Origin: Desulfomarina profundi
GTDB taxonomy: Bacteria > Desulfobacterota > Desulfobulbia > Desulfobulbales > Desulfocapsaceae
Length of the DNA: 64,000 nt
Direction of reading: 5' to 3'
NCBI RefSeq assembly: GCF_019703855.1
Contig: NZ_AP024086.1
Span: 1,446,501 to 1,510,500 of the forward strand
The position numbers were made by a program, and so were the translations under genes. Within the stretch, counting starts at the first letter, position 1. Each line of letters opens with the position of its first letter. The notes under the pieces were generated by a model that was not told where the DNA came from, searched no databases, and worked only from the letters and a program-made list of their open reading frames with translations. Positions 11,463 through 26,449 of the stretch are shown one piece after another.

Positions 11463-12521
11463 ATGAGTGATTGGAAAAAAACCTGTCTTGGTCCGAACGC
11501 TCCCCTGGTAGAAGCCATTCAGGTTCTCAGCCAGGGTGCCATGCGAATTGTTCTTGTGGTCGATCAGAAAAACAGATTGCTTGGGACCGTTACTGACGGA
11601 GATATTCGTCGTGCCCTTATACGTCACTGTGCCATGGATACGCCTGTTGCTCAATTCATGAGCAGAAACCCAACTGTGGCCTCTGTAAAGGATGATCGCA
11701 ATCATATCCTTTTGTTAATGCAGCGAAGGGATATACTGCAGATTCCCCTCGTCGACAGCGAGAATGTTGTTGTTGGCCTTGAAACATTTCAGGGACTGAA
11801 CAAAAGGCCATTTTATGAAAATCCAGTTTTTCTCATGGCAGGAGGGTTTGGAAAAAGACTGAGACCTCTTACGCTGGATACGCCAAAACCGCTGCTGAAA
11901 GTCGGCAAAAAACCTATTCTTGAAAATATACTGGAACAATTTATTGAGTGTGGGTTTCATAATTTTTTTATCTCCACCCATTATAAAGCGAAAATGCTTA
12001 AAGACTATTTTGGTGATGGTGAAAAGTGGAATGTTTCAATACGTTATGTTTACGAAGAAGAGCCATGCGGCACTGCAGGTGCTCTCGGATTGCTGCCGGA
12101 AGATTTGCCACAGCTTCCGGTTATCGTAATGAATGGTGATTTACTGACCAAGGTAAACTTTGAACATTTGCTGGAGTTTCATAATGAATCCGAAGGAATC
12201 GCAACCATGTGTGTCAGGGAATACGATTTCCAGGTACCTTACGGTGTTGTCAAGGCCAGGGACAATAAAATGATCGGGATTGAGGAAAAACCAATCCATA
12301 AATTTTTTGTAAATGCAGGAATCTATGTTCTCGATCTGGAAATTGTTCGGAGTGTAGAAGGGGGCAAATATCTTGATATGCCAGATCTACTGGAAACATG
12401 TGTGGATAGAGGAGACACGGTGACCATGTTCCCCATACATGAATTCTGGCTGGATATTGGTAATATGCCTGACTATAAAAGGGCGAACAGCGAAGACTTT
12501 ATTGTTCAGAATGGTTATTGA
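11463..12521 (+). CDS. ptmE: CBS-domain nucleotidyltransferase (PtmE-like GlcN-1-P guanylyltransferase)
   Basis: 352 residues. Residues about 1-120 form a pair of CBS domains (GTVTDGDIRRALI is typical). They are followed by a sugar-phosphate nucleotidyltransferase domain with FLMAGGFGKRLRPLT, then TPKPLLKVGKKPI and VMNGDLLTK. This fusion is the architecture of Campylobacter PtmE, which makes the GDP-linked glucosamine donor that feeds LegB. Its presence supports a GDP-based, not UDP-based, legionaminate route here. The CBS pair could sense a nucleotide, but no ligand is visible from sequence. The gene starts 7 bp after the acyltransferase stop and overlaps the oxidoreductase gene. Confidence 0.85.
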   Translation: MSDWKKTCLGPNAPLVEAIQVLSQGAMRIVLVVDQKNRLLGTVTDGDIRRALIRHCAMDTPVAQFMSRNPTVASVKDDRNHILLLMQRRDILQIPLVDSENVVVGLETFQGLNKRPFYENPVFLMAGGFGKRLRPLTLDTPKPLLKVGKKPILENILEQFIECGFHNFFISTHYKAKMLKDYFGDGEKWNVSIRYVYEEEPCGTAGALGLLPEDLPQLPVIVMNGDLLTKVNFEHLLEFHNESEGIATMCVREYDFQVPYGVVKARDNKMIGIEEKPIHKFFVNAGIYVLDLEIVRSVEGGKYLDMPDLLETCVDRGDTVTMFPIHEFWLDIGNMPDYKRANSEDFIVQNGY

Positions 12522-13560
12522 TTCGACAGAAAAACATTTTCTTGTTGTTGGTTTCGGCAGTATCGGCAGAAGACATGTCCGCAATTTGAAGACATTGTTC
12601 TCAGATTGCAGGGTTACAGTGTTGAGGCATGGAGATGGCTGCAGAGAATCAAAACGGTTATATCAGGAAGGCGCAAACAATTGTATTGACAGCCTGAATG
12701 ATGTATTGCAACTGGAATTGACTGCAGCAATTATTGCAAATCCTGCCTCCCTTCACCTTCAGACAGCTGAGATACTCGCAGAAAAAAACATCCCGATTTT
12801 TATTGAAAAACCGTTTTCCCATTCAACTGAAGGACTGTCGGACTTTATTAACCACTGTGCTGAAAAAAAGATCGTGTTGATGGTAGGCTATAACCTGCGC
12901 TTTACTCCATCACTGCAAAAATTCCGACAATTGCTTTCAGAAAAGATTATCGGTCGGATTCTCTCTGTCAGAAGTGAAGTGGGTCAGTATCTACCTTCCT
13001 GGAGACCTGCTCAGAAATACCAGGATACTGTTTCAGCACAAAAAGCACTAGGCGGAGGAGTACTGCTTGAGTTAAGTCATGAAATTGATTATTTAGTATG
13101 GCTTTTCGGATATGCAGATTCTGTCACGGCTGCCATAAGTCGACAGAGTGATCTTGAAATAGATGTTGAGGATACAGCCCATGTTCTTTTAAATTTTTCC
13201 TCACACAATAAAGAAAAAAAACTGCCGGCTGTATTAACCATGGATTTTGTCCGCCACGATACAACAAGGACCTGCACGGTAGTTGGAACTGAAGGAACAC
13301 TCCGCTGGGATGGTATAAACAGGTCTGTGGATATATTTGAAAGGGCAGCAGACAGCTGGAAAAATATCTATCATGATGAAAATGACAGTAACGCTTCGTA
13401 TCTTGAAGAATTGCGATATTTTGCAGATGGATTGGACACTGAGGACAGCACTGCACTTACAACCTCTGTTCTTGAAGCAAAACATGTAGTTGAAATTGTC
13501 GAAGCTGCAAAAAAATCTTCAGCGCTCAAAAGAATGGTGGAATTGCAAGTTGGAAAATAA
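12511..13560 (+). CDS. Gfo/Idh/MocA family oxidoreductase
   Basis: 349 residues from the ATG at 12511, which overlaps the ptmE stop by 11 bp. The N-terminal Rossmann motif FLVVGFGSIGRRHVRNL and the EKPF block (FIEKPFSHS) define the glucose-fructose/inositol dehydrogenase family; LLELSHEIDYLVWLFG is the usual C-terminal domain element. These NAD(P)-dependent enzymes oxidise or reduce a sugar hydroxyl. Related genes sit in Campylobacter and Legionella legionaminate clusters, but I do not know a proven step for this one; it may help make the glucosamine precursor or tailor the nonulosonate. A longer in-frame reading from 12439 lies inside ptmE and lacks a ribosome site. Confidence 0.82.
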   Translation: MVIDSTEKHFLVVGFGSIGRRHVRNLKTLFSDCRVTVLRHGDGCRESKRLYQEGANNCIDSLNDVLQLELTAAIIANPASLHLQTAEILAEKNIPIFIEKPFSHSTEGLSDFINHCAEKKIVLMVGYNLRFTPSLQKFRQLLSEKIIGRILSVRSEVGQYLPSWRPAQKYQDTVSAQKALGGGVLLELSHEIDYLVWLFGYADSVTAAISRQSDLEIDVEDTAHVLLNFSSHNKEKKLPAVLTMDFVRHDTTRTCTVVGTEGTLRWDGINRSVDIFERAADSWKNIYHDENDSNASYLEELRYFADGLDTEDSTALTTSVLEAKHVVEIVEAAKKSSALKRMVELQVGK

Positions 13561-14266
13561 ATTGAAAAAATATCCTGCCCTTATCTGTGCAAGAGGTGGC
13601 TCCAAAGGGGTTCCAGGAAAAAATATCCGGAAGCTGGCCGGTATTCCTCTTATAGGGCATGCGATTTTAAAAGCTATGGAAGTTGAGAATATTTCGGAAG
13701 TTTTTGTCTCCACTGACTCAGATGAAATAGCAGAGGTTGCAAGAAAATATGGTGCTATTGTTCCTTTCAGGCGGCCTGAGTACCTTGCGGAGGACGACAG
13801 TCCTGAATGGAAGGTGTGGCAGCATGCCGTGCGATATCTCCAGGATAACTATGGTAAGCCTTTTTTCGGTATGGTTGTGATTCCCGCAACGGCTCCCTTG
13901 AGAAGTGCTGAAGATATCAGGAGATGTGTCGAAACTTTTGAAGAAAATGATTGTGATTGTGTAATTACAGTGACTGAAGCACATCGCAGTCCATATTTCA
14001 ACATGGTCCTTACAACGGAAGATGGTTACAGCCACCTGGTGATAGAAAGGGAGGAACATGTATTTCGGCGACAGGATGTGCCGGTTGTTTACGATATGAC
14101 GACTGTTGCCTATGTTGTTCACCCTGAGTTCGTGTTATCCGCTGAAAATATTTTTTCAGGTAAAGTTAAACATGTTGTTATTCCAGTGGAACGGGCACTT
14201 GATATTGATACGGAACTCGATTTCAAGATCGCCGAGTTTCTCTTGAAATCAGTTGGGGAAAAGTGA
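13550..14266 (+). CDS. legF: CMP-nonulosonate cytidylyltransferase (LegF/NeuA-like)
   Basis: About 238 residues of the acylneuraminate cytidylyltransferase family. The N-terminal ALICARGGSKGVPGKNIRKL is the CTP-binding signature, followed by VFVSTDSDEIAEVARKYGA and DIDTELDFKIAEFLL near the end. The enzyme activates the nonulosonic acid with CTP for transfer. No ATG fits a sensible start: TTG at 13550 (overlapping the upstream stop, with GGTGG 9 bp before) or TTG at 13562 are the best candidates. The 3' end overlaps the ptmA-like gene by 4 bp. The close coupling to legI, legG and ptmE supports CMP-legionaminate over CMP-sialate. Confidence 0.87.
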   Translation: MENKLKKYPALICARGGSKGVPGKNIRKLAGIPLIGHAILKAMEVENISEVFVSTDSDEIAEVARKYGAIVPFRRPEYLAEDDSPEWKVWQHAVRYLQDNYGKPFFGMVVIPATAPLRSAEDIRRCVETFEENDCDCVITVTEAHRSPYFNMVLTTEDGYSHLVIEREEHVFRRQDVPVVYDMTTVAYVVHPEFVLSAENIFSGKVKHVVIPVERALDIDTELDFKIAEFLLKSVGEK

Positions 14267-15069
14267 AAATGCGCACGGTAAATGAACTGATGAACCTGGA
14301 AGGCAGGAAGGCATTAATTACCGGTGCAACCGGATGTATCGGCTCTGTTATTTCCGACACTCTTGGGGAACTTGGCTGTGAGCTTATTCTTGTTGACAGA
14401 CCGGGGTCTGATTTTGAAAAACTTAAAACCAGGTTGAAGAAAAGCTGGAACAGCACTGTATTTCAGAGAGAATGTGATCTTGAAAGCGAAAAACAGCCTG
14501 GTGATCTATTGGAATGGTTGAGAAACAGATTTGAAAAGATTGATATATTAATTAATAATGCCGCCTTTGTCGGTGAATCTTCGCTTGGTGGATGGGTCAC
14601 TGCTTTTGAAGAACAGAGTGTAAATACCTGGAGAAGAGCGCTGGAGGTCAACCTTACTGCGGTGTTCGAACTGGTTCAGGGGTGTTCGCCTCTCATGCAT
14701 ACAGGTCATGGGTCTGTTATAAATATATCATCGATATATGGTATGCTGGGACCTGATTTTACCCTGTATGACAATACTGCCATGGGAAACCCGGCAGCCT
14801 ATGCTGCGTCAAAAGGAGGTCTTCTCCAGTTGACCCGCTGGCTGTCAACGGCTTTGGCACCTGAAATCCGGGTAAATGCTATTTCACCCGGGGGTGTATT
14901 CAGAAATCAGCCAGAAGAGTTTGTGCGGCGGTATGAAAAAAGAACACCTCTGGCTCGTATGGCAACTGAAGAAGATTTCAAGGGAGCAATTGCCTATCTG
15001 GCCAGCGATCTTTCGTCCTACTGTACCGGACATAACCTCGTAGTCGATGGCGGTTGGGCAATCTGGTAG
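14263..15069 (+). CDS. ptmA: short-chain dehydrogenase (PtmA-like)
   Basis: 268 residues, classical SDR. The NAD(P)-binding TGATGCIGSVISD, the NNAAF motif and the catalytic YAASKGG tyrosine/lysine are present, and the C-terminal GHNLVVDGGWAIW is standard. Length, order and motifs match PtmA of the Campylobacter legionaminate cluster, a reductase of unresolved exact role thought to act in precursor or tailoring chemistry. The start may be GTG at 14263, overlapping the legF stop by 4 bp, or ATG at 14269. The following amidotransferase gene begins 19 bp downstream, so the whole segment appears to be one transcription unit. Confidence 0.82.
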   Translation: MKMRTVNELMNLEGRKALITGATGCIGSVISDTLGELGCELILVDRPGSDFEKLKTRLKKSWNSTVFQRECDLESEKQPGDLLEWLRNRFEKIDILINNAAFVGESSLGGWVTAFEEQSVNTWRRALEVNLTAVFELVQGCSPLMHTGHGSVINISSIYGMLGPDFTLYDNTAMGNPAAYAASKGGLLQLTRWLSTALAPEIRVNAISPGGVFRNQPEEFVRRYEKRTPLARMATEEDFKGAIAYLASDLSSYCTGHNLVVDGGWAIW

Positions 15070-15088
15070 AAACTAAAAGGATTAATAT

Positions 15089-16204
15089 ATGAGTAAAAAG
15101 GTTTTCTGGTGTAAAAACTGTTTGAACATGTCAACCCGCCCACGTATCGTTTTTGATGAGAGGGGGTGGTGTAATGCCTGTGTCTGGGCGGAACAGAAAA
15201 AGAAGATGGACTGGTCGGTGAGGGAAAAGGAACTTCTGCAGATTCTGGACCGTTACCGTGCGGATGATGGCAGTTTTGACTGCATGGTTCCGGTCAGCGG
15301 TGGAAAAGATGGTTCCTATGTTTCGTATATGCTGAAACATAAATACAATATGAATCCTCTTGCCATTACCATTACCCCTGCTCTTTCTCTGGAACTGGGT
15401 AACAGGAATCTGAAAAATTATATTGAAAGCGGCTATAATCATATCCAGATCAATCCGGATTTTGAAGCCATGCGCATTTTAAACAAAACCGGATTTATTG
15501 AAAAAGGATTTCCATATTACGGCTGGTTGATTGCTATTCAGGCAGCGCCCGTTCGTATGACTCTCAATATGGGTATTTCCCTTATTTTTTATGGTGAGGA
15601 CGGTGAAGTTGAATATGGCGGAACAACAACCACCCGCACCAATCCCATGTATGATCCACAGTATATGCGGGATATTTATCTGGAGGGTGGACATGAAAAG
15701 GTATTGAAAGCTTCTGGACTGAAAAAATCCCAATTGAATTTTTTCCAGTTTCCGACGGAAGAAGAGTTAAAGGATAAAGATTTGAATATTGCCCACTGGT
15801 CTTATTTTGAATCATGGGATCCCTACAGGAATTATCTGGTAGCAAAAGAACATTGTGGCCTTGAAGAGGCTGAGGAAACCAATTCAGGTACTTTCACTAA
15901 TTTTGCACAGAACGATCAGGCACTCTATGCACTCCATACCTACATGATGTATCTGAAATTCGGTTTTGGTCGTGGGACGCAGGATGCAGGTATCGAAATC
16001 AGAAGGGGGTCAATGACCAGGGAACAGGCTGTAAACCTGGTGCGACTGTACGATGGTCAATATCCTGAAGAATTTATCGAGCTTTATTTAGACTATTACC
16101 AGATGAGTCAAAAAGAATTTGATGATGTTCTGGATTTCTGGGTAAACAAGGAACTTTTCAGAAAAATTGACGGACGATGGGAACCTCTCTTCACTGTTGA
16201 GTGA
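15089..16204 (+). CDS. N-acetyl sugar amidotransferase 1 (WbpG/PseA family)
   Basis: 371 residues. The N-terminus has two CxxC pairs, Cys8/Cys11 and Cys28/Cys31, probably binding zinc, and a PP-loop VSGGKDGS (from about residue 69) that binds ATP. This is the family of P. aeruginosa WbpG and Campylobacter PseA, which turn an N-acetyl group on a sugar into an acetamidino (N-acetimidoyl) group. Ammonia comes from glutamine via HisH/HisF-like partners, and those two genes follow directly. The target is therefore likely an acetamido group of the legionaminate-type sugar made upstream. A second, clearly divergent member lies at 20606. Confidence 0.9.
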   Translation: MSKKVFWCKNCLNMSTRPRIVFDERGWCNACVWAEQKKKMDWSVREKELLQILDRYRADDGSFDCMVPVSGGKDGSYVSYMLKHKYNMNPLAITITPALSLELGNRNLKNYIESGYNHIQINPDFEAMRILNKTGFIEKGFPYYGWLIAIQAAPVRMTLNMGISLIFYGEDGEVEYGGTTTTRTNPMYDPQYMRDIYLEGGHEKVLKASGLKKSQLNFFQFPTEEELKDKDLNIAHWSYFESWDPYRNYLVAKEHCGLEEAEETNSGTFTNFAQNDQALYALHTYMMYLKFGFGRGTQDAGIEIRRGSMTREQAVNLVRLYDGQYPEEFIELYLDYYQMSQKEFDDVLDFWVNKELFRKIDGRWEPLFTVE

Positions 16205-16211
16205 TGGTGCT

Positions 16212-16841
16212 ATGGGAAAAGATGTAGCGGTCATTGATTATGGTGCCGGAAATGTCTGGTCTGTCTTGAATGCCTTTAAATACTTGGGGGCCACTCCCAG
16301 GCTTGTTGATGATCCTGAGCAGGTATTGACGGCTGATTTTCTTGTGTTGCCCGGGGTCGGCTCATTCAGACAGGGGATGAACCGGTTGAGAGAGTATGGG
16401 ATAGACAAGGCCCTCCAGGAAGCTGTCGGAGAAAAAGGAAAAAAAATTTTAGGTATTTGCCTGGGTATGCAGTTATTGGGAGGATATGGAACCGAAGATG
16501 GTTATACGGAAGGACTTGGACTCGTTTCTCATGGTGTGGAACCATTTGCAAAAGAAGAAGTTAACGGCAGGAAAATTCCACATGTAGGATTTAACTCTGT
16601 ACTTTTTAAAAAAACTGATGGTTTGTTCCGCGGCCTCGGTCCCCAAGCTGATTTTTATTTCGTCCATTCATACAGAATGCTTCCTGAAGGATCAGACCCG
16701 GTGTTTGCCCGGGGAATTTGTTCTTACGGTATTGATTTTCTGGCCGCATTTGAAAAAGATAATGTCTGTGGCACTCAGTTTCATCCTGAAAAAAGTCAGA
16801 CTAATGGGTTGATATTGCTGCAAAACTTTCTCAATTCCTGA
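16212..16841 (+). CDS. hisH: HisH-like glutamine amidotransferase subunit 1 (sugar amidination)
   Basis: 209 residues of class I glutamine amidotransferase. The nucleophile lies in GICLGMQLLGG (Cys83), and the catalytic His191/Glu193 in QFHPEKS, so glutaminase activity should be intact. The family makes ammonia for the HisF partner in histidine synthesis, but here it lies between a WbpG/PseA-type amidotransferase and an altered HisF. This is the arrangement that feeds ammonia to sugar amidination in P. aeruginosa O-antigen clusters. No other histidine gene is nearby. The ATG at 16212 is chosen because the conserved KDVAVIDYGAGN follows directly; a longer frame from 16167 runs into the upstream gene. 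Confidence 0.88.
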   Translation: MGKDVAVIDYGAGNVWSVLNAFKYLGATPRLVDDPEQVLTADFLVLPGVGSFRQGMNRLREYGIDKALQEAVGEKGKKILGICLGMQLLGGYGTEDGYTEGLGLVSHGVEPFAKEEVNGRKIPHVGFNSVLFKKTDGLFRGLGPQADFYFVHSYRMLPEGSDPVFARGICSYGIDFLAAFEKDNVCGTQFHPEKSQTNGLILLQNFLNS

Positions 16842-16884
16842 ATTGGTTTCTTCGACGGCAAATTCAATTTGATATTAGAAGAGA

Positions 16885-17688
16885 ATGTTAAAAAAACGAG
16901 TCATCTTTGCACTGCTGTACAACAATGGAAATTTTATGCTCAGTCGTAATTTCAGATTGCAGAAGGTTGGAGATCTGAATTGGCTGAGGAATAATTACAA
17001 TTTTTCACAAATTGCCTTTTCCATAGACGAGTTGATTATTCTGGATGTGACCAGGGGGAAGCGTGATTTTGATCGTTTTTGTGTGCATGTAAAGGCACTT
17101 ACGGAAAACTGCTTCATCCCGATTACAGCAGGCGGCGGTATCACTCAAGCTGATGACGCCGTAAAATTGCTCAGGTCAGGTGCAGATAAGGTAATAGTGA
17201 ACAGTATTGTTCAGGAAAATCCAGGTGTACTGTCAGATATTGCCCGGCAATTTGGACGACAGTGTATTGTTGTTTCAGTTGATGTAAAAATGATTGATAA
17301 TCAGGCAACAATATGGATAGAGAACGGTGAAAAAAAATCAGAGAATGTCCTTGAAAAGTGGTTTGAAATTACGAGTCGACTGCCCTTTGGAGAATTGTAT
17401 CTTAATTCGATGGACAGGGACGGTACGGGGCAGGGATTTCTTTTAAGTCTGTTGGATTATCTACCACAATCCTATGATGTACCGGTCATTATTGCCGGAG
17501 GAGCCGGAAACTATAAACACCTTGCCGAGGGGTTGGAAGATGAAAGAGTTGATGCTGTCGCAACAGCCCATCTCTTTAATTTTGTTGGCAACGGCCTTGA
17601 AGAAGCTCGCAGCAAACTCTTGGATGAAGGTTTTTTTCTTGCAAAATGGGAAAAGAGATTTGGTTTGCTGCAACAGGGGACTGACTGA
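16885..17688 (+). CDS. hisF: HisF-like cyclase-subunit homologue 1, lacking Asp11
   Basis: 267 residues of HisF-type TIM barrel: TAGGGITQADDAVKLLRSGADKV, IVVSVDVK, NSMDRDGTGQGF and VPVIIAGGAG. The first catalytic aspartate of histidine-pathway HisF (motif CLDVKDG, Asp11) is absent; the matching segment reads FALLYNNG, with Leu11. The second catalytic aspartate (Asp130 in T. maritima HisF) is present as Asp133. Loss of Asp11 argues against imidazole-glycerol-phosphate cyclisation. It fits a role as ammonia conduit between HisH and the sugar amidotransferase. It pairs with the HisH gene ending 43 bp upstream. Confidence 0.85.
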   Translation: MLKKRVIFALLYNNGNFMLSRNFRLQKVGDLNWLRNNYNFSQIAFSIDELIILDVTRGKRDFDRFCVHVKALTENCFIPITAGGGITQADDAVKLLRSGADKVIVNSIVQENPGVLSDIARQFGRQCIVVSVDVKMIDNQATIWIENGEKKSENVLEKWFEITSRLPFGELYLNSMDRDGTGQGFLLSLLDYLPQSYDVPVIIAGGAGNYKHLAEGLEDERVDAVATAHLFNFVGNGLEEARSKLLDEGFFLAKWEKRFGLLQQGTD

Positions 17689-17708: not shown

Positions 17709-18683
17709 ATGGCGATTGACGGGAAACAGCTACTTGGAGCCAGAAAACAATTAGTTGAAAAGGTTGTTTTTCTCGATGGGTTGAGCAGGGCGGGAAAATT
17801 TCTTCTCGGTAAAGTTGTTTCAAATTATAAGAAAGTTGATTTTTTTCAATATGCTGAGATTCTCGAACATATTCCGGTCATTGAACACCTTGGCCTTATA
17901 GAGCCCCGGGCTGCCCTCTCTTTGTTCCAGATACAGCTTGATCTTTTTTTTTATAACCGGGTAATTGGCAGAAACCTGAATCTGCGGCAATCTGACGGCT
18001 CTTGTGTTGCAAATGCAACGCAATTTGAAAGTATTGTTGCAAGGCAAAAGGAATCTGACGGTATTGAAGCAGTACAACGATTTCGGAGGCAGGAGTTGCT
18101 TCCTGCGTTTCTGGTGCATGAATGTCTGCCCCATGTCAAATTTTTTCTGCAGGCTTACCCGAAAATGCAAATGATCAATATTCAGCGTCATCCTGTGGAT
18201 ATTGCACATTCATGGTTTGTAAGAGGATGGGGCAGTAGATTCGGAAAGGATCCCCTTGCCTTTATTCCTGTCATTGAAATGGAAGGGAGACCGGTTCCAT
18301 GGTTTGCAGGTGAGTGGACCCGCCCATACCTGTCTATGAATGAAAAAGAGCGTGTAATCATGAGTATATGTACTCTGATGAATCTTGATCAGGAAGCATA
18401 TAATACTCTTGATGATAAAAACAAAGAACAGATACTCTTTGTCCCGTATGAAATATTTGTGGAACAGCCTTTGACAGTTGTTGAAAAAATTGGTGGCTTT
18501 CTTGAGGATGAGCCATTTGATAATATGAATGAAATTCTCAAGCGCGAGAAGGTTTTCAGAAAGCTGTCACTGTCACAGCGGCAGGAAAAGAAAAGTGAAT
18601 TGATCTCTTCGAATGTTTCTGAAGAAATTGTTTCAGATTTCAAGAGTATTATCAGTGAATACGAGAATCGTTGGCTCATTTAA
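17709..18683 (+). CDS. sulfotransferase-like protein
   Basis: 324 residues. A P-loop-like 5'-PAPS-binding segment FLDGLSRAGKFLLGK lies at residues 21-35. A 3'-phosphate-binding-like segment INIQRHPVDIAHSWF (Arg160) follows; the pair, with this spacing, is the signature of PAPS-dependent sulfotransferases. Later FVPYEIFVEQPLTVVEKI resembles the conserved Tyr-Glu block of that family. It would transfer sulfate from PAPS to a sugar hydroxyl. An APS kinase gene 1.4 kb downstream could supply PAPS. No signal peptide is visible, so action in the cytoplasm on the nucleotide-linked or lipid-linked glycan is likely. The identity of the acceptor is unknown. Confidence 0.72.
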   Translation: MAIDGKQLLGARKQLVEKVVFLDGLSRAGKFLLGKVVSNYKKVDFFQYAEILEHIPVIEHLGLIEPRAALSLFQIQLDLFFYNRVIGRNLNLRQSDGSCVANATQFESIVARQKESDGIEAVQRFRRQELLPAFLVHECLPHVKFFLQAYPKMQMINIQRHPVDIAHSWFVRGWGSRFGKDPLAFIPVIEMEGRPVPWFAGEWTRPYLSMNEKERVIMSICTLMNLDQEAYNTLDDKNKEQILFVPYEIFVEQPLTVVEKIGGFLEDEPFDNMNEILKREKVFRKLSLSQRQEKKSELISSNVSEEIVSDFKSIISEYENRWLI

Positions 18684-18772
18684 ATTACAGTTTGAGTAAA
18701 GGATGAGTTAATGGAATTTTCAATAGATGAAAAAAAACCAGTATACTTTACTGTTTTATCCGGATACTTGAT

Positions 18773-19795
18773 ATGAATACGAAACTCCTTGTTACCCTTG
18801 GTCCCAGTTCTCTGAAAAAAGATATAGTCTCTGCGATTGACAGACATGATATTTTTCTTTTTCGAATCAATCTTTCACATACACCTCTTGAAAAAGTTGA
18901 AGAAACAATTCATTTAATAAGGTCTTTCAGTGACACGCCTATCTGCCTGGACAGTGAAGGAGCCCAGGTGCGTAATCAGGTGATGAGAGAAGGATATGCA
19001 TTCTTTAAAGATGATACCCTCATAACAATACATCATAAGGAGGTAAAGGGAGATTCGGAAAACATTTCCTTTACCCCGGATTTTGTTTCACAGCAGCTCA
19101 TCCCGGGAGATGTGATTAATGTGGATTTTAATTCGGTGAAGTTGAAGGTGCTGGAAAATGGATCTGAAAAATGTGTTGCAAGGGTAATTTCCGGAGGCGA
19201 GGTCGGCAGCAATAAAGCTGCTGATATAGAAAGGGATATTGAACTCCCTTCGATTACTGAAAAAGATGAAAAGGCTATAAAAATTGGAAGAAGCCTCGGA
19301 ATAAAATATTTTGCACTATCATTTTCAAGTTCCAGGAAGGAGGTGGAAAAATTCAGATCACTGACAGGGGACGGGGCATACATTATTTCTAAAATTGAAA
19401 GCAAAAAAGGCGTTGCTCATATTGATGGTATTCTTGAGGCGAGTGATGCCATCCTTATCGACAGAGGTGATTTGTCCCGCCAGGTTCCCATCGAATTAGT
19501 CCCGTTTTTCCAGAGGCGACTGATCTCCACCGCAAAGTCAGCTGAAAAAGAGGTTTTTGTTGCCACGAATCTGCTAGAATCTATGATCATTTCCCAGCAA
19601 CCTACCCGGGCCGAAGTAAATGATATCGTGAGTACAATTGAAATGGGTGCAACCGGTCTTGTTCTAGCTGCTGAAACTGCTGTTGGGAAGTATCCGATCG
19701 GTAGTGTGAAAATGGTGAGAAAGCTGACAAAACAATTTAACAGGTGGACCAGTAATACGAGCCTTCAGGAATTGCTGCAATCCGGTAGTAATTAA
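18773..19795 (+). CDS. pyruvate kinase-like protein lacking the C-terminal regulatory domain
   Basis: 340 residues, against about 470 for ordinary pyruvate kinase. The A and B domains are recognisable: KLLVTLGPSS, FRINLSH, ISKIE (Lys207 and Glu209, the catalytic lysine and a metal ligand), SDAILIDRGDL (Asp225, metal ligand), VATNLLESMI, PTRAEVNDI and AAETAVGKYP. The protein ends after the barrel, and the allosteric C domain is missing. The conserved DTKGPEIR is altered to DSEGAQVR. It may still handle PEP, the co-substrate of the two NeuB-type synthases in the run, but whether it makes, uses or merely senses PEP cannot be told from sequence. It is followed by a MITE-like repeat. Confidence 0.8.
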   Translation: MNTKLLVTLGPSSLKKDIVSAIDRHDIFLFRINLSHTPLEKVEETIHLIRSFSDTPICLDSEGAQVRNQVMREGYAFFKDDTLITIHHKEVKGDSENISFTPDFVSQQLIPGDVINVDFNSVKLKVLENGSEKCVARVISGGEVGSNKAADIERDIELPSITEKDEKAIKIGRSLGIKYFALSFSSSRKEVEKFRSLTGDGAYIISKIESKKGVAHIDGILEASDAILIDRGDLSRQVPIELVPFFQRRLISTAKSAEKEVFVATNLLESMIISQQPTRAEVNDIVSTIEMGATGLVLAAETAVGKYPIGSVKMVRKLTKQFNRWTSNTSLQELLQSGSN

Positions 19796-19799
19796 TAAT

Positions 19800-19963
19800 T
19801 GATGGACTCGTAAAAACTCCGATCTACTGCGTTGTGGGGTGATCGTGTAATGCTCGACGTACTCTATGTACGCCTGCGCTTACACGACACCGCCACGCCT
19901 TGTATATCGAAGTTTTTCCAGAGTCCATCTGGGAACGTTGAATGACTTTTTACGAGATCATCA
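19800..19963 (+). repeat. MITE-like 164-bp repeat, copy A
   Basis: It starts TGATGGACTCGTAAAAA and ends with the imperfect inverse of that sequence, so it has terminal inverted repeats. Inside, TCGTGTAA and TTACACGA form a further nested stem around a GTAC-containing palindrome, making the whole unit foldable. It has no open frame. A near-identical copy in the opposite orientation lies at 41314-41477; by hand alignment only about 4 of 164 positions differ. It fills most of the 249-bp gap between the pyruvate-kinase-like gene and the APS kinase gene. Confidence 0.85.
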
Positions 19964-20044
19964 ATAATTGAGTTCCTTGAAAGGTCATGGAACTGAGGAT
20001 TTTTATTTGAATCAGGTTATCGTGCCGATGATAAGGCTTTATGA

Positions 20045-20587
20045 ATGAAAACGTCAACTGCGAAAATAATATGGCTGCTTGGTCCGACTTCAAGTGGAAA
20101 AACAACCCTGGCAACCCATTTTGTGGAAAAACTCCGCCGAAGAGGTATTCCTGTACTACATTACGACGGAGATGAGGTAAGGAATTTTTTCGGAAGTTCC
20201 CTGGGCTTTGATGCGGAGAGCAGATTGAGAGTAGTCAGGACCCTGGTTCACCTGGCTAATAAAGGGGTGGAAGCGGGTATTAATGTGGTTATTTCCGCAC
20301 TGACTGCAAACCAGGATGCTCGTGATTTTGTGCATGCTCATTTAAAATATAAACATATCGTTTATATTAAATGTCCTATTGAACTCTGTGCCAAAAGAGA
20401 TCCTAAGGGACTTTATAAAAAGGCTTTGTGTGGAGAGGTCAAAACACTGATTGGTGTTAATGGTGAATATCGTGAACCGGATTCTCCTGATTTTATATTG
20501 AATACAGGGGAAAATACCCTGGAAGAGTCACTGGATCTTCTTGAAGAATATTGGCAGGAGTGTGATTCAATGAATGTTGAGTTATGA
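20045..20587 (+). CDS. cysC: adenylylsulfate (APS) kinase-like protein
   Basis: 180 residues. The P-loop GPTSSGKTT lies at residues 13-21. It is followed by the APS kinase signatures DGDEVRNFF, LGFDAESRLRVVRTL, and KRDPKGLYKKALCGEVKTL with GEYREPDSPD. The enzyme phosphorylates adenylylsulfate at the 3' position to make PAPS, the donor for sulfotransferases. Assimilatory ATP sulfurylase and PAPS reductase genes are absent from the window, so this copy is probably dedicated to glycan sulfation together with the sulfotransferase-like gene at 17709. It is the first gene after MITE copy A. Confidence 0.85.
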   Translation: MKTSTAKIIWLLGPTSSGKTTLATHFVEKLRRRGIPVLHYDGDEVRNFFGSSLGFDAESRLRVVRTLVHLANKGVEAGINVVISALTANQDARDFVHAHLKYKHIVYIKCPIELCAKRDPKGLYKKALCGEVKTLIGVNGEYREPDSPDFILNTGENTLEESLDLLEEYWQECDSMNVEL

Positions 20588-20605: not shown

Positions 20606-21817
20606 ATGAAAAAGCAAAAAGTATTATATGGTTTACCGGAAGAGGTAAAATTCTGCTCCCGTTGTGTTATTTCAAATCAGCGACCAAGTTCTGTTGTTGA
20701 GTTTAAAAATGATCCCAAGGCAGAAAAACCAACAATCATGTTTGATGACGAAGGGGTTTGCTCTGCATGCAGGTATGCTGAAATCAAAGAGAACATTGAT
20801 TGGGATCAAAGAGAAAAACAACTGATTGAACTCTGCGATAAACATAGAAAAAGCGATGGTCAGTATGACTGTATAGTTCCTGGTAGTGGAGGAAAGGACT
20901 CTGCGTTTACTGCTCATATTCTGAGATATAAATATGGAATGAACCCTCTGACTGTTACCTGGGCTCCCCATAAATACACACAGATCGGCTGGGATAATTT
21001 CCAGAACTGGATTCACTCCGGTCTTGACAATATGCTTTATACTCCCAATGGACGGGTGCATAGACTCCTGACCCGCCTGGCTTTTGAAGTTCTTGTCCAC
21101 CCGTTTCAGCCTTTCATTATTGGTCAACGCTTAATCGGTCCACGTTTTTCAGTTCTCTATGATATTCCGTTGGTTTTTTACGGAGAAAACCAGGCGGAAT
21201 ACGGAAACAATATCGAGGAAAACGAAAAACCGACCATGGATATGTCATTCTTCCACGAGTCCAGACTTGAAGTTATGGATCTGGTTCTTGGGGGAGTAAA
21301 AGTTCGGGATTTAATAGAAAAACATGGAATTGAACTCCGTGATCTTACACCATATCTGCCCCTTGATGGTGAGCGGTTGAAAAAAACCGGGACTGAAGTG
21401 CATTATCTTGGGTATTACCTGAGGTGGGATCCCCAGGAATGTTATTATTATGCTGCTGAAAATACTGGTTTTCAGGCCAACACTGAACGAACCGAGGGGT
21501 CATATTCAAAATACAGTTCAATAGATGACAAAATTGATCCATTACATTATTACACAACGTTGATCAAATTCGGTATCGGACGGGCTACATATGATGCTGC
21601 CCAGGAAATCCGCAATGGAAAAATCACCAGAGAGGAAGGAGTAGCTTTGGTGAAACGGTATGACACTGAATTTCCCGTGAAATTTTTTAAGGAAATTATC
21701 GATTACATGGGCATTTCCGAGGAGAAATTTTGGGATGTTATCGACAGTGCGAGGTCACCCCATCTTTGGCTGAAGGATAATGATGGAACATGGCAACTCA
21801 GGCACCAGGTAGAATAG
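20606..21817 (+). CDS. N-acetyl sugar amidotransferase 2 (WbpG/PseA family)
   Basis: 403 residues. It has the same layout as the protein at 15089: two cysteine pairs (FCSRCVIS near the start, and CSACRYAE about 35 residues later) and the ATP-binding PP-loop VPGSGGKDSA. Residues after the PP-loop (MNPLTVTWAPHKYTQIGWDNFQ) differ considerably from copy 1 (MNPLAITITPALSLELGNRNLK). This looks like an ancient paralogue with another sugar substrate, not a recent duplication. It should produce a second acetamidino modification, with the HisF and HisH homologues at 25688-27090 as its ammonia supply. It begins 18 bp after the APS kinase stop. Confidence 0.88.
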   Translation: MKKQKVLYGLPEEVKFCSRCVISNQRPSSVVEFKNDPKAEKPTIMFDDEGVCSACRYAEIKENIDWDQREKQLIELCDKHRKSDGQYDCIVPGSGGKDSAFTAHILRYKYGMNPLTVTWAPHKYTQIGWDNFQNWIHSGLDNMLYTPNGRVHRLLTRLAFEVLVHPFQPFIIGQRLIGPRFSVLYDIPLVFYGENQAEYGNNIEENEKPTMDMSFFHESRLEVMDLVLGGVKVRDLIEKHGIELRDLTPYLPLDGERLKKTGTEVHYLGYYLRWDPQECYYYAAENTGFQANTERTEGSYSKYSSIDDKIDPLHYYTTLIKFGIGRATYDAAQEIRNGKITREEGVALVKRYDTEFPVKFFKEIIDYMGISEEKFWDVIDSARSPHLWLKDNDGTWQLRHQVE

Positions 21818-21827
21818 GACAATCTCC

Positions 21828-22865
21828 ATGAATACTCCTGAAATCACTCTCGGCACCAGAAGAATAGGCAGGGCCTGTCCTCCTCTTGTTATTGCGGAAA
21901 TCGGCATCAACCACGAAGGTGAAATCGAAAAAGCATTTCAGATGATTGATGATGCTGTCCGAGTAGGTTGTGAGTGCGTTAAATTTCAGTGTCATGTTGT
22001 TGAAGACGAAATGATTCCCAACGATGTAATCCCGGGCAATGCCAATGAATCCATATGGGATATTATGAAACGCTGCGCACTCTCAGAAGATGAAGATAGT
22101 CGGCTGATGGATTACTGCGGAGAAAAAGGTATACTTTACCTCAGCACTCCTTTTTCAAGAGCGGCTGCTGATCGTTTGGAAAAACTTGGTGTCAGTGGGT
22201 ATAAAATCGGTTCAGGAGAATGCAATAACTATCCGCTCATAAAACATATCGCCGGGTTCGGCAAACCGGTTATTCTCTCAACTGGCATGAACGATCTTGA
22301 ATCCGTGGGAAAAGCGGTTGATATTTTGAGGGAAAAAAATATTCCATATGCCCTCCTTCATTGTACCAGCATGTATCCGACACCCTATGATAAAATCAGG
22401 TTGCAGGCCATGTCTCAGCTGGAAGATGTTTTTCCTGACAGTGTGGTTGGCTTGTCAGATCATTCCGTCAGTAATTATCCCTGTCTTGGTGCAGTCTCCC
22501 TTGGGGCCAGTATTCTGGAGAGGCATTTTGTCTCTGACAAAAGCTGGCCGGGGCCGGATGTTGAGATATCAATGGATCCGGAAGATTTACATCAGCTGAT
22601 TGAAGGGAGCAGGATAATTCACCAGTGCCTTGGAGGGCAAAAGGAAATCCTACCTGAAGAACAGCCGACAATAGATTTTGCCTATGCGTCTGTAGTGTCC
22701 CTGAACAGCATAGAAAAAGGGGATATTCTGACCAGGAAAAATATCTGGGTGAAAAGACCCGGTACCGGAGAGATCCTTGCTGTGGATTTTGAAAAGATTC
22801 TTGGTAGAGCGGCGACGGTAGATATTCCTGCAGGGGTACAGATCAAAAAGGAGTGGATCAGTTAA
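21828..22865 (+). CDS. neuB: nonulosonic acid synthase 2, NeuB family
   Basis: 345 residues. NeuB barrel motifs are IAEIGINHEGE, CVKFQCHVVEDE, STPFSRAAAD, KIGSGECNNYPL, STGMNDLESV, LHCTSMYP, LSDHSVSN and ERHFVSDKSWPGPD. The C-terminal SAF domain carries VKRPGTGEIL. It condenses PEP with an N-acyl-mannosamine-type sugar. It is markedly different from the synthase at 9741, for example in the segment after the first motif, and therefore probably makes a distinct nonulosonic acid. Its neighbours (2-epimerase, CMP-transferase) complete a NeuB-NeuC-NeuA set, but no second 4,6-dehydratase or aminotransferase is present. The product could thus be sialic-acid-like, or it could share the LegB/LegC intermediates. 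Confidence 0.9.
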   Translation: MNTPEITLGTRRIGRACPPLVIAEIGINHEGEIEKAFQMIDDAVRVGCECVKFQCHVVEDEMIPNDVIPGNANESIWDIMKRCALSEDEDSRLMDYCGEKGILYLSTPFSRAAADRLEKLGVSGYKIGSGECNNYPLIKHIAGFGKPVILSTGMNDLESVGKAVDILREKNIPYALLHCTSMYPTPYDKIRLQAMSQLEDVFPDSVVGLSDHSVSNYPCLGAVSLGASILERHFVSDKSWPGPDVEISMDPEDLHQLIEGSRIIHQCLGGQKEILPEEQPTIDFAYASVVSLNSIEKGDILTRKNIWVKRPGTGEILAVDFEKILGRAATVDIPAGVQIKKEWIS

Positions 22866-24007
22866 TGAAGAAAATAGTCTTCATTACAGGGACCAGGGCT
22901 GACTTCGGTAAACTCAAATCACTGATTCACGTTGTAGCCGACAGTGATGATTTTGAGTATTCTATTTTTGCCACCGGCATGCATATGCTCTACAGGTACG
23001 GCATGACAGTGGAAGAAATCCATAAGGCCGGATTTACCAATATCTTTACCTATATGAATCAGGTGCATGGAGAGCCCATGGAAATGGTACTGGCTAATAC
23101 CATAACCGGGTTATCACGATACCTCCATGAGTATCGGCCGGATATGCTCATTGTCCATGGTGACAGGGTTGAGGCCATGGCCGGTGCAATAAGCGGTGCA
23201 TTAAGAAATATTCTTGTGGGTCATGTCGAAGGAGGAGAATTGTCCGGAACCATCGATGATCTCATACGTCATTCTGTGACAAAACTTGCTCATATTCACT
23301 TTGTGGCTAACAGGGAAGCAGAAAATAGATTACTGCAACTGGGAGAGCAACCGGAAACAATACATATAATAGGCTCACCTGATATTGATGTCATGTTATC
23401 GAACGATCTGCCTGATATTCAGGAGGTCAGGGAGTATTATGATATTCCATATAAATCTTATGTTCTGGTTCTCTATCATCCTGTTACCACAGAACTGGAC
23501 AGTCTTGCTGAAAATGTTCGGGAACTGGTGGATTCCATCATAGAGTATGACATGAACTACGTGGTAATCTACCCCAATAATGACTCAGGTTCGGAACATA
23601 TATTCAATGAATATGAAAGGCTTGGTGCCAGGGAAAATATTCGTATTTTTCCATCATTGCGTTTTGAATATTTTCTGACCCTGTTGAAAAACGCCCGTTT
23701 TATCCTTGGCAATTCCAGTGCCGGTATCCATGAAGCACCTGTTTTTGGTATTCCATCTGTCAATATTGGCTCAAGACAGAAGGATCGGTTTTCCTACTGT
23801 TCAATCATAAATGTTGGAAACACCAGGGCGGAGATCCTGGATGGTATGGAACGAGCTGAAAAAAACGGGGTTTTCGAACCTTCAAGTTTTTTCGGCATCG
23901 GTAAAAGTGCTGAGAAGTTTCTCGATGTTATTCAAAAGGGCTCACTCTGGAAGACGCCAAAGCAGAAGAATTTTCAAAACATCTCTTTTTCCAGTCCGGA
24001 ATCGTGA
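22865..24007 (+). CDS. neuC: hydrolysing nucleotide-sugar 2-epimerase 2 (NeuC-like)
   Basis: 380 residues. KKIVFITGTRADFGKL, IVHGDRVEAMAG, GHVEGGELSGTIDD, HIHFVANREAENRL, LYHPVTTE and GNSSAGIHEAP are the NeuC-type motifs. It hydrolyses a UDP- or GDP-HexNAc with inversion at C2, giving the acceptor for the synthase upstream. The ATG at 22865 overlaps the neuB2 stop by one base and has AAGGAG about 11 bp before it; a GTG 12 bp further upstream is a possible but less likely start. The C-terminal about 25 residues (WKTPKQKNFQNISFSSPES) look like a flexible tail. Confidence 0.88.
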   Translation: MKKIVFITGTRADFGKLKSLIHVVADSDDFEYSIFATGMHMLYRYGMTVEEIHKAGFTNIFTYMNQVHGEPMEMVLANTITGLSRYLHEYRPDMLIVHGDRVEAMAGAISGALRNILVGHVEGGELSGTIDDLIRHSVTKLAHIHFVANREAENRLLQLGEQPETIHIIGSPDIDVMLSNDLPDIQEVREYYDIPYKSYVLVLYHPVTTELDSLAENVRELVDSIIEYDMNYVVIYPNNDSGSEHIFNEYERLGARENIRIFPSLRFEYFLTLLKNARFILGNSSAGIHEAPVFGIPSVNIGSRQKDRFSYCSIINVGNTRAEILDGMERAEKNGVFEPSSFFGIGKSAEKFLDVIQKGSLWKTPKQKNFQNISFSSPES

Positions 24008-24684
24008 TGAAACAGGTTACGGCGATAATTACGGCCAGGGGTGGTTCAAAGGGGATTCCAAGGAAAAACATCCGCTTGGTCAATGGGAAACCACTTATTG
24101 CGTATACTATTGAGGCTGCCCTGAACTGTCCTCTTGTTGACAGATGTTATGTGACAACCGAAGACAGGGAGATCATGGAAGTCAGTCAGAAATGGGGGGC
24201 GGATATCATTGAACGACCGTACCATCTTGCAGAAGATAACTCTCTCAGCAGTGATGTTGTGGTTCATGCCCTGCAGGAACTGGCAGTTGAAAAACTTCCT
24301 GAATACTTTGTTCTGCTGCAACCTACTTCTCCCCTGCGAACTGCAGCACATCTTGAAAAATGTCTGCGGGGTTATTTGGAAGCTGGTGTTTCATGCGGGG
24401 TCAGTGTGACTCCGGCAGAGCATCATCCCTGGAAGATGCTTATCCGTGACGGGGAGAATATACGACCACTGAAGGATATACAGAGCTTGGAAATGCCAAG
24501 GCAACAGCTTCCCGAGGCATTGCGAATAAATGGAGCTATTTATGTGATGCCTTCAAAGCTTTTCCTCGAAAACCAGACATTTTTTATAGAGCCGGCATAT
24601 TTCTATACAATGGATGCACAATCAAGTATTGATATTGATACAGAAACAGATCTGAAAATTTTTGAACATCTACTTGCATCCTGA
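24004..24684 (+). CDS. neuA: CMP-nonulosonate cytidylyltransferase 2 (NeuA-like)
   Basis: 226 residues. ITARGGSKGIPRKNIRLV is the CTP-binding signature, LLQPTSPLRTAAHLE is the conserved PTSPLR block, and DIDTETDLKIFEHLL closes the domain. It activates the product of the second synthase as the CMP-sugar. The PTSPLR block here is canonical, whereas the upstream LegF-like enzyme has PATAPLRSAEDI, another sign that the two sets serve different sugars. The start is GTG at 24004 or ATG at 24007, overlapping the 2-epimerase stop. The methyltransferase gene follows 17 bp later. Confidence 0.9.
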   Translation: MMKQVTAIITARGGSKGIPRKNIRLVNGKPLIAYTIEAALNCPLVDRCYVTTEDREIMEVSQKWGADIIERPYHLAEDNSLSSDVVVHALQELAVEKLPEYFVLLQPTSPLRTAAHLEKCLRGYLEAGVSCGVSVTPAEHHPWKMLIRDGENIRPLKDIQSLEMPRQQLPEALRINGAIYVMPSKLFLENQTFFIEPAYFYTMDAQSSIDIDTETDLKIFEHLLAS

Positions 24685-24701
24685 AAAAGGAGTTAACTGA
24701 A

Positions 24702-25688
24702 ATGGGGGATCAATCCGAAAAAGAGGCGTTACAGCTAGAAGCAATGGCCTTTGACAGACAGATTGATGAGCGATTGGCTGCTGGCCACTTGCCTGACCTG
24801 AGAAGAGCTGAGGAGTGCACCTGGTTTTACAATAACAGCTGGCGTCACCCCCATTATATTCAACTGGATTTTGGGGAACAGATTGAATTGATCAGTTCTG
24901 CAATAAAAAAGCATAACACTGATGAGAATAAAAGACCGAAAATTCTGGAAGTTGGCTGCGGGCCAGGGCACATGACACTGGAACTTGCCAGAAACGGTTT
25001 TAATACAACCGGTATTGATCTTTCTCTGAAATGTATTGAAGTTGCAAAAAAAACTGCAGATGAAGATCCCTGGAAAAAAACAAGGGCCGCACTGAAATAT
25101 ATTCAGGCAGATTTCCTGGAAAATGAGACTTTTCCTGTAAATACTTTTGATGTTGTAATTTTTATCGGGGCATTACACCATTTTCCGGAACAACAGAGGG
25201 TTTTATCACAGGTTTCAAAGGTTCTCAGGGAAGATGGTATTATTCTCGTTCATGAGCCCACGAGAGACAGGATGACCGAGGGAAATGCAGCGTTCATACA
25301 TCTTGTCAAATTATTGTTGTGTCAGAATGGAGGTTTCTTTAAAGAGTATGAAATCCCGGAATCTTTAAAAGCCTACAGGGAACAGATCGGGGAAATTTAT
25401 GCCGATATGAAATATGAAGATATTTCGGGTGAGAAAAAACAGTCTATCAATGACAATGAAGCCGGTTTTATTGAAATGAGGGAGGGACTCTGCCATTTTT
25501 TCAAGGAATTGCACTTTGAGGAGAGATATGCATTCTTCCATGAAATAATAGGGGGACTGCGCTTTGATCAGAAGAAAAACAACATGCTGGCCTCATATCT
25601 ACGCATGGCAGATGGTGAACTGTGTCGCCTGGGAGTCCTGCAACCGACAGAGTTTTTTTATGTGGGTCGGAAAATAGGTGATAAATAA
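24702..25688 (+). CDS. class I SAM-dependent methyltransferase
   Basis: 328 residues. The SAM-binding motif I KILEVGCGPGHMTLEL, then TTGIDLSLKCIEVAKK, FDVVIFIGALHHF and the post-motif block VLREDGIILVHEP define a Rossmann-fold methyltransferase. An extra N-terminal segment of about 70 residues and a C-terminal helical region of about 110 residues give it a size larger than the minimal fold. It lies between the CMP-transferase and HisF homologue of the second nonulosonate set, which suggests methylation of the sugar or of its acetamidino group; that is inference. GGAG 10 bp before the ATG is a good ribosome site. Confidence 0.82.
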   Translation: MGDQSEKEALQLEAMAFDRQIDERLAAGHLPDLRRAEECTWFYNNSWRHPHYIQLDFGEQIELISSAIKKHNTDENKRPKILEVGCGPGHMTLELARNGFNTTGIDLSLKCIEVAKKTADEDPWKKTRAALKYIQADFLENETFPVNTFDVVIFIGALHHFPEQQRVLSQVSKVLREDGIILVHEPTRDRMTEGNAAFIHLVKLLLCQNGGFFKEYEIPESLKAYREQIGEIYADMKYEDISGEKKQSINDNEAGFIEMREGLCHFFKELHFEERYAFFHEIIGGLRFDQKKNNMLASYLRMADGELCRLGVLQPTEFFYVGRKIGDK

Positions 25689-26449
25689 TGGCTGGGATTC
25701 GGTTAATTGCACGATTGGATGTGAAAGGGGCAAACCTTATCAAGGGAATTCACCTGGAAGGGTTGAGAGTCATTGGTGATCCCAGGGAATATGCCCGAAA
25801 ATACTACGAGCAGGGTGCCGATGAAATTATTTATATGGATTGTGTTGCCAGTTTATATGGACGAAATAATTTAACGGAAATTGTTCGACATGCAGCTGAG
25901 GATATTTTTATTCCCATGACAGTGGGAGGTGGAGTACGCTCAGTGAGTGATGTTGAAATGCTTTTACGTGTTGGTGCAGACAAGGTGGCAGTGAACACCG
26001 CAGCTGTAGCCCGCCCTGAACTGATATCAGAAATAGCCACCAGATTTGGTTCGCAGTGCATGGTTTTATCCATTGAGGCCAAAAACAAGGAAAAGGGTCG
26101 GTGGGAAGCTTATACTGACAATGGTCGTGAAAAAACCGGAATAGACGTGATTGAGTGGGCAAAACGGGCTGCCGATCTTGGCGCAGGTGAGATACTGCTG
26201 ACATCAATTGACCGGGAAGGAACCAGAAAAGGATACCAGGTTGATCTTGTGAAAGCCGTGTCCACAGCAGTTACTATTCCTGTAATCGCAAGCGGAGGAA
26301 TGGGGGGAGTTGACCATCTGCAGCAAGTTACAGAAGAAGGGAAAGCAGACGCTGTTGCCATGGCAGATATAATTCATTACAACCGTATGACCATTGGTGA
26401 AATCAGAAAGGAATCCCTTGCTGGAGGGGTCAAGGTAAGCAGAAGATGA
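25688..26449 (+). CDS. hisF: HisF-like cyclase-subunit homologue 2, Asp130 replaced by Glu
   Basis: 253 residues, HisF TIM barrel: RLDVKGANLIKG (Asp11 present), MTVGGGVRSVSDVEMLLRVGADKV, LTSIDREGTRKGY and VIASGGMGG. The second catalytic aspartate of the histidine enzyme is changed: the motif AIDAK reads SIEAK, with Glu130. This is the mirror image of HisF homologue 1, which has lost Asp11 but kept the second. The protein probably channels ammonia from the overlapping HisH gene to amidotransferase 2 and does not form imidazole-glycerol phosphate. The start overlaps the methyltransferase stop by one base. Confidence 0.87.
   Translation: MAGIRLIARLDVKGANLIKGIHLEGLRVIGDPREYARKYYEQGADEIIYMDCVASLYGRNNLTEIVRHAAEDIFIPMTVGGGVRSVSDVEMLLRVGADKVAVNTAAVARPELISEIATRFGSQCMVLSIEAKNKEKGRWEAYTDNGREKTGIDVIEWAKRAADLGAGEILLTSIDREGTRKGYQVDLVKAVSTAVTIPVIASGGMGGVDHLQQVTEEGKADAVAMADIIHYNRMTIGEIRKESLAGGVKVSRR

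Follow-up and report, generated by a model that had tools for sequence, protein, structure and literature searches.

Among the described ways of activating sulfate, the CysDN enzyme adds GTP hydrolysis to the reaction. In the NodPQ/NodH system of rhizobia, enzymes making 3'-phosphoadenosine 5'-phosphosulfate (PAPS) provide for sulfating a glycan of the cell surface or of signalling, and a Mesorhizobium loti nodPQ mutant is described as making no sulfated polysaccharides (PMC6192434); a local PAPS supply is already known. The same holds for fusions of ATP sulfurylase with adenosine 5'-phosphosulfate (APS) kinase or with pyrophosphatase: fused PAPS synthases and pyrophosphatase triple fusions join genes at the ATP sulfurylase step, which runs uphill, and organisms are said to bias sulfate activation chiefly through the consumption of pyrophosphate and APS (PMC13213808). 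Moreover, in a man-made enzyme mix for PAPS synthesis in vitro, pyruvate kinase (PK) with phosphoenolpyruvate (PEP) recycles the ADP released by APS kinase, and PAPS was practically absent without this regeneration module and significantly higher with it (PMC9885120). In the present work, we analysed a stretch of 64,000 nucleotides (hereafter, the window) from the 4.3-Mb single-contig genome of Desulfomarina profundi (C1:1446501-1510500), in which genes for a sulfotransferase (17709-18683), a short pyruvate-kinase-like (PK-like) protein (18773-19795) and a probable APS kinase (20045-20587) follow one another on the forward strand, inside a cluster of nonulosonate-type genes.

We propose, with moderate confidence, that these three genes represent a sulfation kit for the surface glycan of the nonulosonate cluster, in which a PK-coupled PAPS supply feeds a glycan sulfotransferase. 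According to this scheme, this sulfur-respiring bacterium would make APS with an ATP sulfurylase whose gene lies outside the window, and the APS kinase would convert APS and ATP into PAPS; the short PK would form ATP from ADP and PEP, pulling PAPS synthesis forward and sparing the kinase from its product, and the sulfotransferase would move the sulfate of PAPS onto one of the glycan's sugars, possibly a nonulosonate. The window thus holds what appears, from its sequence, to be a natural gene set resembling the in vitro PK/PEP solution. As in loci of the NodPQ kind, APS kinase and sulfotransferase are encoded in one gene run; in contrast to them, the window harbors no ATP sulfurylase (PF01747; CysN-type GTPases were not searched for) and a PK-like enzyme is found instead, an ATP sulfurylase being brought into the locus by fusion in 59 out of 80 relatives of the PK-like gene. 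Such fusions differ from the fused PAPS synthases in that the partner is a PK barrel rather than an APS kinase or a pyrophosphatase. With PykF and PykA, in turn, the PK-like protein shares the fold and the catalytic residues, differing from them in the lack of a C-domain match, in a changed pocket and in a separate position in the tree. An earlier, sequence-only reading had assigned sulfotransferase-like and APS kinase genes to the span 17709-20587; both open reading frames (ORFs) are present there on the forward strand, but the PK-barrel gene lying between them had been missed.

The sulfotransferase gene encodes 324 residues, and its sequence profiles are marginal: the protein scored 24.8 bits with PF00685 (Sulfotransfer_1; cut-off 22) and 24.1 bits, just below the cut-off of 27, with PF13469 (Sulfotransfer_3), and a sequence search of the PDB gave one weak match, a shikimate kinase (E 0.0029). 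The fold was settled by structure prediction, a check that the sequence-only reading had itself put forward. The AlphaFold2 (AF2) model (predicted local distance difference test, pLDDT, 83.5; predicted template modelling score, pTM, 0.85) retrieved sulfotransferases bound to 3'-phosphoadenosine 5'-phosphate (PAP), the top Foldseek match being 3ap3, tyrosylprotein sulfotransferase-2 with PAP (E 8.1e-07); in VIA-align, the model matched 5wri_A, tyrosylprotein sulfotransferase-1, with a Z of 19.0 and a root-mean-square deviation of 3.3 over 230 aligned residues. All of the 50 VIA-align matches listed are sulfotransferases or proteins with such a domain (Teg12 being counted as a sulfotransferase), and one of the 50 Foldseek matches listed is a non-sulfotransferase (3crm, E 1.2e-3). 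The PAPS-binding-like motifs noticed at the outset are borne out by an alignment of ten sequences, in which G24, G29 and R160 are invariant and K30 is kept in at least 90%; G24 to K30 form a G-x-x-R-A-G-K loop, and we take G29 and K30 to belong to the PAPS loop and R160 to the 3'-phosphate motif. The protein can thus be predicted, from its modelled fold, to be a sulfotransferase and, by the same token, to depend on PAPS.

Relatives of this sulfotransferase are scarce in the phylum: a match at E 0.01 or better was found in 8 of 395 genomes, namely its own, four strong ones from one family (E 1e-38 or better) and three weak ones. A search of 58 near relatives gave a match in the own genome only, a search of plasmids retrieved no relative, and neither did a scan of GTDB genome contigs, although three loci (L031, L034 and L056) carry relatives; since these surfaced later, in the PK scan described below, the contig scan with the sulfotransferase was insensitive.

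The PK-like gene codes for 340 residues matching the PK barrel (PF00224, 204 bits against a cut-off of 30, E 4.2e-60). No PK C-terminal regulatory domain was found over the 340 residues at E up to 1, a chance-level CDC48_2 being the one match besides the barrel, and the protein stays below the cut-off of the NCBIfam equivalog TIGR01064 (249.5 against 306.4). The AF2 model (pLDDT 90.5) matches PK along its length, with E. coli PykF (4yng) retrieved by Foldseek at E 1.1e-35 and TMq 0.83. The scan of GTDB genomes with a PK alignment and two peptide patterns (CLD[TS]EGAQ and A[TY]IISKIE) yielded 124 relatives; the 80 best ones were retained, and several of these represent near-copies or strains of one genus. 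These 80, together with the sequences of L011 and L012 and that of the window, were aligned (n = 83) and compared with 13 canonical PKs. R31, N33, S35, H36, D60, R67, K207, E209, R231, G232, T265 and E301 are identical in all 83 sequences and D233 in 82 of them, the invariance at positions 58-65 and 202-209 being partly due to the construction of the scan patterns and positions 230-302 lying outside them. These are positions of phosphoryl transfer and metal binding; their retention suggests that the PK-like enzyme is active, with PEP as its presumable substrate.

In a quick tree (both the PK and the APS kinase trees are quick ones, with support from the Shimodaira-Hasegawa-like approximate likelihood ratio test only), the PK-like family stands apart from the 13 canonical PKs (support 100*). 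The window protein falls within a clade (99*) whose 18 members are all unfused; 12 of these, itself included, have an APS kinase gene within 300 bp. A separate PK is encoded elsewhere in the same genome, in an open frame of 599 residues. The idea that the PK-like protein is the only PK of the cell was rejected for 13 out of the 15 genomes tested, where a full-length PK was also detected; in two Omnitrophota metagenome-assembled genomes (MAGs; G455 and G466), the PK-like one is the sole PK found. A role as a stand-in for APS kinase was likewise rejected, a PF01583 APS kinase being present in 21 of 22 chosen genomes with a PK-like gene (the exception is MAG G459).

Evidence for a role in sulfation comes from the organization of the PK-like genes. 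According to local hidden Markov models (HMMs), the PK-like gene is fused to an ATP sulfurylase in the 59 loci already mentioned, adjacent to one in another locus and fused to an APS kinase in one; an APS kinase gene lies within 300 bp on the same strand in 37 loci, and a sulfotransferase candidate is present in 37, within 3 kb in 33 of them. Overall, at least one sulfation partner was detected in 76 out of 80 PK-like loci and in none of 13 canonical-PK loci, taken from genomes with a PK-like gene and with flanks of about 1.5 kb, a control for fusion and immediate neighbours rather than for 10 kb. A chance neighbourhood was rejected on this comparison.

The Pfam architecture of PK, PUA_2 and ATP-sulfurylase was confirmed in L011 and L031, and that of PK and APS_kinase in L087; in a KSB1 MAG, one open frame of 1069 residues (L089:4106-7315) joins Sulfotransfer_3, PK, PUA_2 and ATP-sulfurylase. 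No NCBIfam model exceeded its cut-off for the L011 fusion protein. As for the sulfotransferases, 34 of 38 candidates (one from each locus and, in addition, that of the window) matched PF13469 at E 0.001. The 37 loci hold 44 candidates, 35 of which were submitted to Pfam together with the window protein and with overlapping frames of L063 and L065 (two), standing in for the candidates of those loci; nine further copies were left out (one each in L044, L049, L063, L065 and L073, four in L057). At the genome level, PF13469 exceeded its cut-off in 42 of the 49 genomes examined and in 2 of 14 control genomes, the controls not being matched for taxonomy.

The fusion is the sole PF01747 protein in 11 of the 12 fusion-bearing genomes checked, whereas three genomes whose PK-like gene is unfused were checked (D. 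profundi, G443 and G450) and all have a separate ATP sulfurylase. The PK-ATP sulfurylase fusion is present in some Sinorhizobium, Ensifer and Mesorhizobium genomes. The closest plasmid matches of the window APS kinase (58% identity), from Sinorhizobium chiapasense and Ensifer adhaerens, are encoded directly behind such a fusion (726 residues in L011); its N-terminal half shares 47-48% identity with the PK-like protein of the window, and the remainder is an ATP sulfurylase. Judging from record titles, the whole family spans about ten phyla, and the fused form about nine phyla or candidate phyla. Neighbouring gene families were also clustered in 77 of the 80 loci, the near-copies L043, L065 and L091 having been dropped. 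Sixteen of them (L035, L037, L040, L041, L045, L050, L053, L055, L058, L061, L070, L071, L073, L074, L086 and L093) have a cation/proton antiporter-like gene (PF00999 in the one representative scanned) no more than 1.2 kb from the PK-like gene, and five have a TauE/SafE-type transporter gene nearby; both are candidates for a sulfate transport or pH partner.

The third gene encodes 180 residues that exceed the cut-offs of TIGR00455 (apsK, 143.1 against 138.7) and of PF01583 (118.7 against 21.1, E 2.9e-34). The P-loop GPTSSGKT and the motifs DGDEVR and DPKGLYKKA are kept, and its product is, from these matches, a probable APS kinase. The quick tree places 41 of the 42 APS kinases encoded in PK-like loci to one side of 11 enzymes taken for comparison (support 89, not starred); the exception, L068, is encoded 7.8 kb from its PK-like gene and groups with the canonical enzymes; the APS kinase of the window belongs to a clade of 21 (100*). 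A long branch, L039_17499 (5.3 kb from the PK-like gene), was part of this tree, and the short pieces of L021 and L067 were not included. The separation suggests that the PK-linked APS kinases represent a subfamily of their own.

Concerning the acceptor, the four strong relatives of the sulfotransferase in the phylum (L136-L139) are located inside nonulosonate-type clusters. Within the 20 kb examined, NeuA-, PtmE-, SDR- (short-chain dehydrogenase/reductase) and Gfo/Idh-like genes accompany each of them; three also have HisF/HisH/WbpG, two have NeuC and one has NeuB. Furthermore, an Omnitrophota MAG (L031) repeats the order of the window, with WbpG, HisH, HisF, a sulfotransferase (37% identity), the PK-ATP sulfurylase fusion and an APS kinase. 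The suggestion made from sequence that the sulfotransferase works on nonulosonates gains support from these five loci, but L034 has mainly WbpG and HisF and L056 no clear nonulosonate set. Taking as positive a best blastp match above 100 bits to a protein of the window, 7 out of 80 PK-like loci contain at least two kinds of nonulosonate-type genes. The tie of the kit to nonulosonates thus rests on the sulfotransferase clade, and the acceptor may be a nonulosonate or a different sugar of that glycan.

Several observations weigh against a PK-coupled sulfation kit dedicated to this glycan. Five positions, D230, S235, R236, N266 and A299, are invariant in all 83 PK-like sequences and are occupied by A, G/A, V/I, Q/E and S, respectively, in the 13 canonical PKs; these positions surround the substrate pocket, and PEP may consequently not be the substrate. 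The APS kinase, credited in the sequence-only reading with all signatures of its family, keeps the three motifs given above, but has LTANQ in place of ISPY/ISPF and LIG in place of the lid FTG, both of which are canonical in 11 APS kinases from its own and related genomes; these motifs are empirical and, both being changed, the name stays that of a probable APS kinase. A repeat element parts the PK-like gene from the APS kinase gene. No sulfation gene was detected in four of the 80 PK-like loci, two at contig ends (L017 and L026) and two (L028 and L029) flanked by roughly 10 kb in each direction. The kit is also patchy: at E 1e-65, a PK-like gene occurs in 1 of 390 genomes of the phylum, its own one, and this rarity makes a horizontal spread of the gene likely. 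Finally, a NeuB-like gene was retrieved, by the same blastp test, in only 4 out of 80 PK-like loci, which implies that the kit is general and not specific to nonulosonates.

The pocket changes bear on what the PK-like enzyme does. It might act in the sulfation pathway on substrates other than PEP and pyruvate, another phosphoryl donor or acceptor driving or following sulfate activation; we regard this as rather unlikely. The five family-specific residues speak in its favour, and two of them, N266 and A299, we take from alignment to correspond to Gln329 and Ser362 of PKM2. In a docking study, these two PKM2 residues are among the ligand contacts, a point which we count for the same alternative (PMC9503632). 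Against it, all the compared residues of phosphoryl transfer and metal binding are kept, and the model fits PK along its whole length. The PK-like domain could otherwise be a regulatory subunit sensing PEP or adenine nucleotides and gating ATP sulfurylase or APS kinase while not turning over itself. The Penicillium ATP sulfurylase, whose fused APS-kinase domain is an allosteric regulator without kinase activity, offers a precedent (PMC13213808); a domain that had lost turnover would not be expected to keep its catalytic residues almost completely, as the 83 sequences do, and we judge such a role to have a low probability. It is very improbable that the sulfotransferase and the APS kinase alone make up the kit, with the PK-like gene as a bystander: no PK-like or APS kinase match accompanies the sulfotransferase relatives of L136-L139 over the 20 kb inspected, but the 59 fusions to ATP sulfurylase, the sulfation partners in 76 of 80 loci and the gene order retained in L031 argue against it. 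That the kinase acts on another activated nucleotide, like the APS-kinase-like enzyme of the Campylobacter phosphoramidate pathway, is very unlikely, since the changed APS- and lid-side motifs and a score of 121.9 with NCBIfam PRK05541 (below its cut-off of 127, and a model not tied to that pathway in this analysis) are opposed by the TIGR00455 match and by kinase relatives encoded directly behind PK-ATP sulfurylase fusions.

A PK-coupled sulfation kit accordingly remains our preferred reading of the locus. The wider proposal, that a PK-barrel family with a changed pocket drives sulfate activation in dedicated loci by means of PEP (or another phosphoryl donor) and together with its own APS kinase subfamily, rather than by pyrophosphate removal or CysN GTP hydrolysis, is put forward tentatively.

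The remainder of the genome is consistent with a supply of APS from outside the window. The scores of aprA (955.8 against 641.75 bits) and dsrA (580.4 against 392.85 bits) exceed their cut-offs and indicate a dissimilatory sulfur metabolism. The absence of other sulfate-assimilation genes near the pair, as previously remarked, holds for the window, where neither PF01747 nor a second PF01583 was found, but the genome encodes two ATP sulfurylases elsewhere, one at C1:1812995 and one, fused to an APS kinase, at C1:151294; these would furnish the APS. The view of the pair as a local PAPS supply must be narrowed to the same extent: fold, family scores and comparative genomics agree in upholding a sulfation kit that includes an APS kinase of its own, but with ATP sulfurylase encoded elsewhere the pair does not amount to a complete PAPS supply. 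The fused enzyme belongs to a second sulfation locus (L151, C1:136000-155900), an exopolysaccharide-type cluster with a Sulfotransfer_3 protein; about 9 kb separate it from the only PF13469 match of the genome, and the cluster also encodes Wzy_C, Polysacc_synt and glycosyltransferase proteins. PAPS genes thus lie near each of the two sulfotransferase loci detected in the genome, as an ordinary fusion in one and as the PK-like/APS kinase kit in the other, other sulfotransferase families not having been searched genome-wide.

In the ORF list, the three genes are flanked on the forward strand by a HisF-like gene upstream and a WbpG-like gene downstream, with gaps of 20, 89, 249 and 18 bp along the run, and they may be co-transcribed. 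Upstream, a first nonulosonate-type set (7311-15069, forward strand), recognised through Pfam and through TIGR03569 and TIGR03568 over their NCBIfam cut-offs, comprises genes for an aminotransferase, NeuC-, NeuB-, NeuD- and PtmE-like proteins, a Gfo/Idh oxidoreductase, a cytidylyltransferase and an SDR; the NeuD-like gene (10811-11455) was assigned by sequence reading alone. It is followed on the same strand by genes for a WbpG-like N-acetyl sugar amidotransferase (15089-16204, TIGR03573, 353.8 against 203.2) and for HisH-like (16167-16841, PF00117) and HisF-like (16885-17688, PF00977) proteins, the latter directly upstream of the sulfotransferase. The second set (20606-27090, forward strand) encodes a second WbpG-like (TIGR03573, 378.9 against 203.2) and a second NeuC-like protein (TIGR03568, 408.6 against 235.9), both over the NCBIfam cut-off, and a second NeuB-like protein (366.3 against 399.65) and a cytidylyltransferase (TIGR03584, 138.3 against 205.7), both below it; a methyltransferase was recognised by Pfam, and the second HisF-like and HisH-like proteins by sequence reading. 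Each set, taken with its own WbpG/HisH/HisF trio (7311-17688 and 20606-27090), carries NeuB-, NeuC- and cytidylyltransferase-like genes; since the two sets differ, the cluster may make two activated nine-carbon sugars. Behind them, a protein of 297 residues (27126-28019) contains a LGSGESINDL motif near residue 58 and has a stretch 28% identical to a sequence located beside nonulosonate genes in L015; no Pfam domain exceeded the cut-off (the best, MptE-like, at E 0.1) and no NCBIfam family matched, and it is possibly a glycosyltransferase of the cluster.

The element between the PK-like and APS kinase genes (19794-19969) is palindromic, with inverted arms at 19794-19819 and 19944-19969. Forty copies, from 65 first-look candidates, were scored in the genome, at 98-100% identity over the 136 bp compared, and the element also occurs in the window at 41403-41432 on the reverse strand; the element resembles a miniature inverted-repeat transposable element (MITE) or a repetitive extragenic palindromic (REP) sequence and is not part of the kit. 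A scan of the window gave five promoter-like sites (6.5 expected) and one terminator-like site (2.4 expected), and Rfam gave no match in it.

In the open-access literature searched, most subscription papers being outside its scope, no paper describing a PK-ATP sulfurylase fusion came to light, and the widespread PK-barrel family, which may drive sulfate activation, is apparently undescribed. Chemical work on granular sludge found both nonulosonates and sulfated glycoconjugates, with few sulfotransferase matches (PMC10483923); the window offers a concrete gene set for sulfated, nonulosonate-containing glycans. The occurrence of the PK-ATP sulfurylase fusion in about nine phyla or candidate phyla, in many cases with an APS kinase or sulfotransferase gene beside it, points to an additional way of powering sulfation, and the PK-like family may serve as a marker for finding sulfated bacterial glycans.

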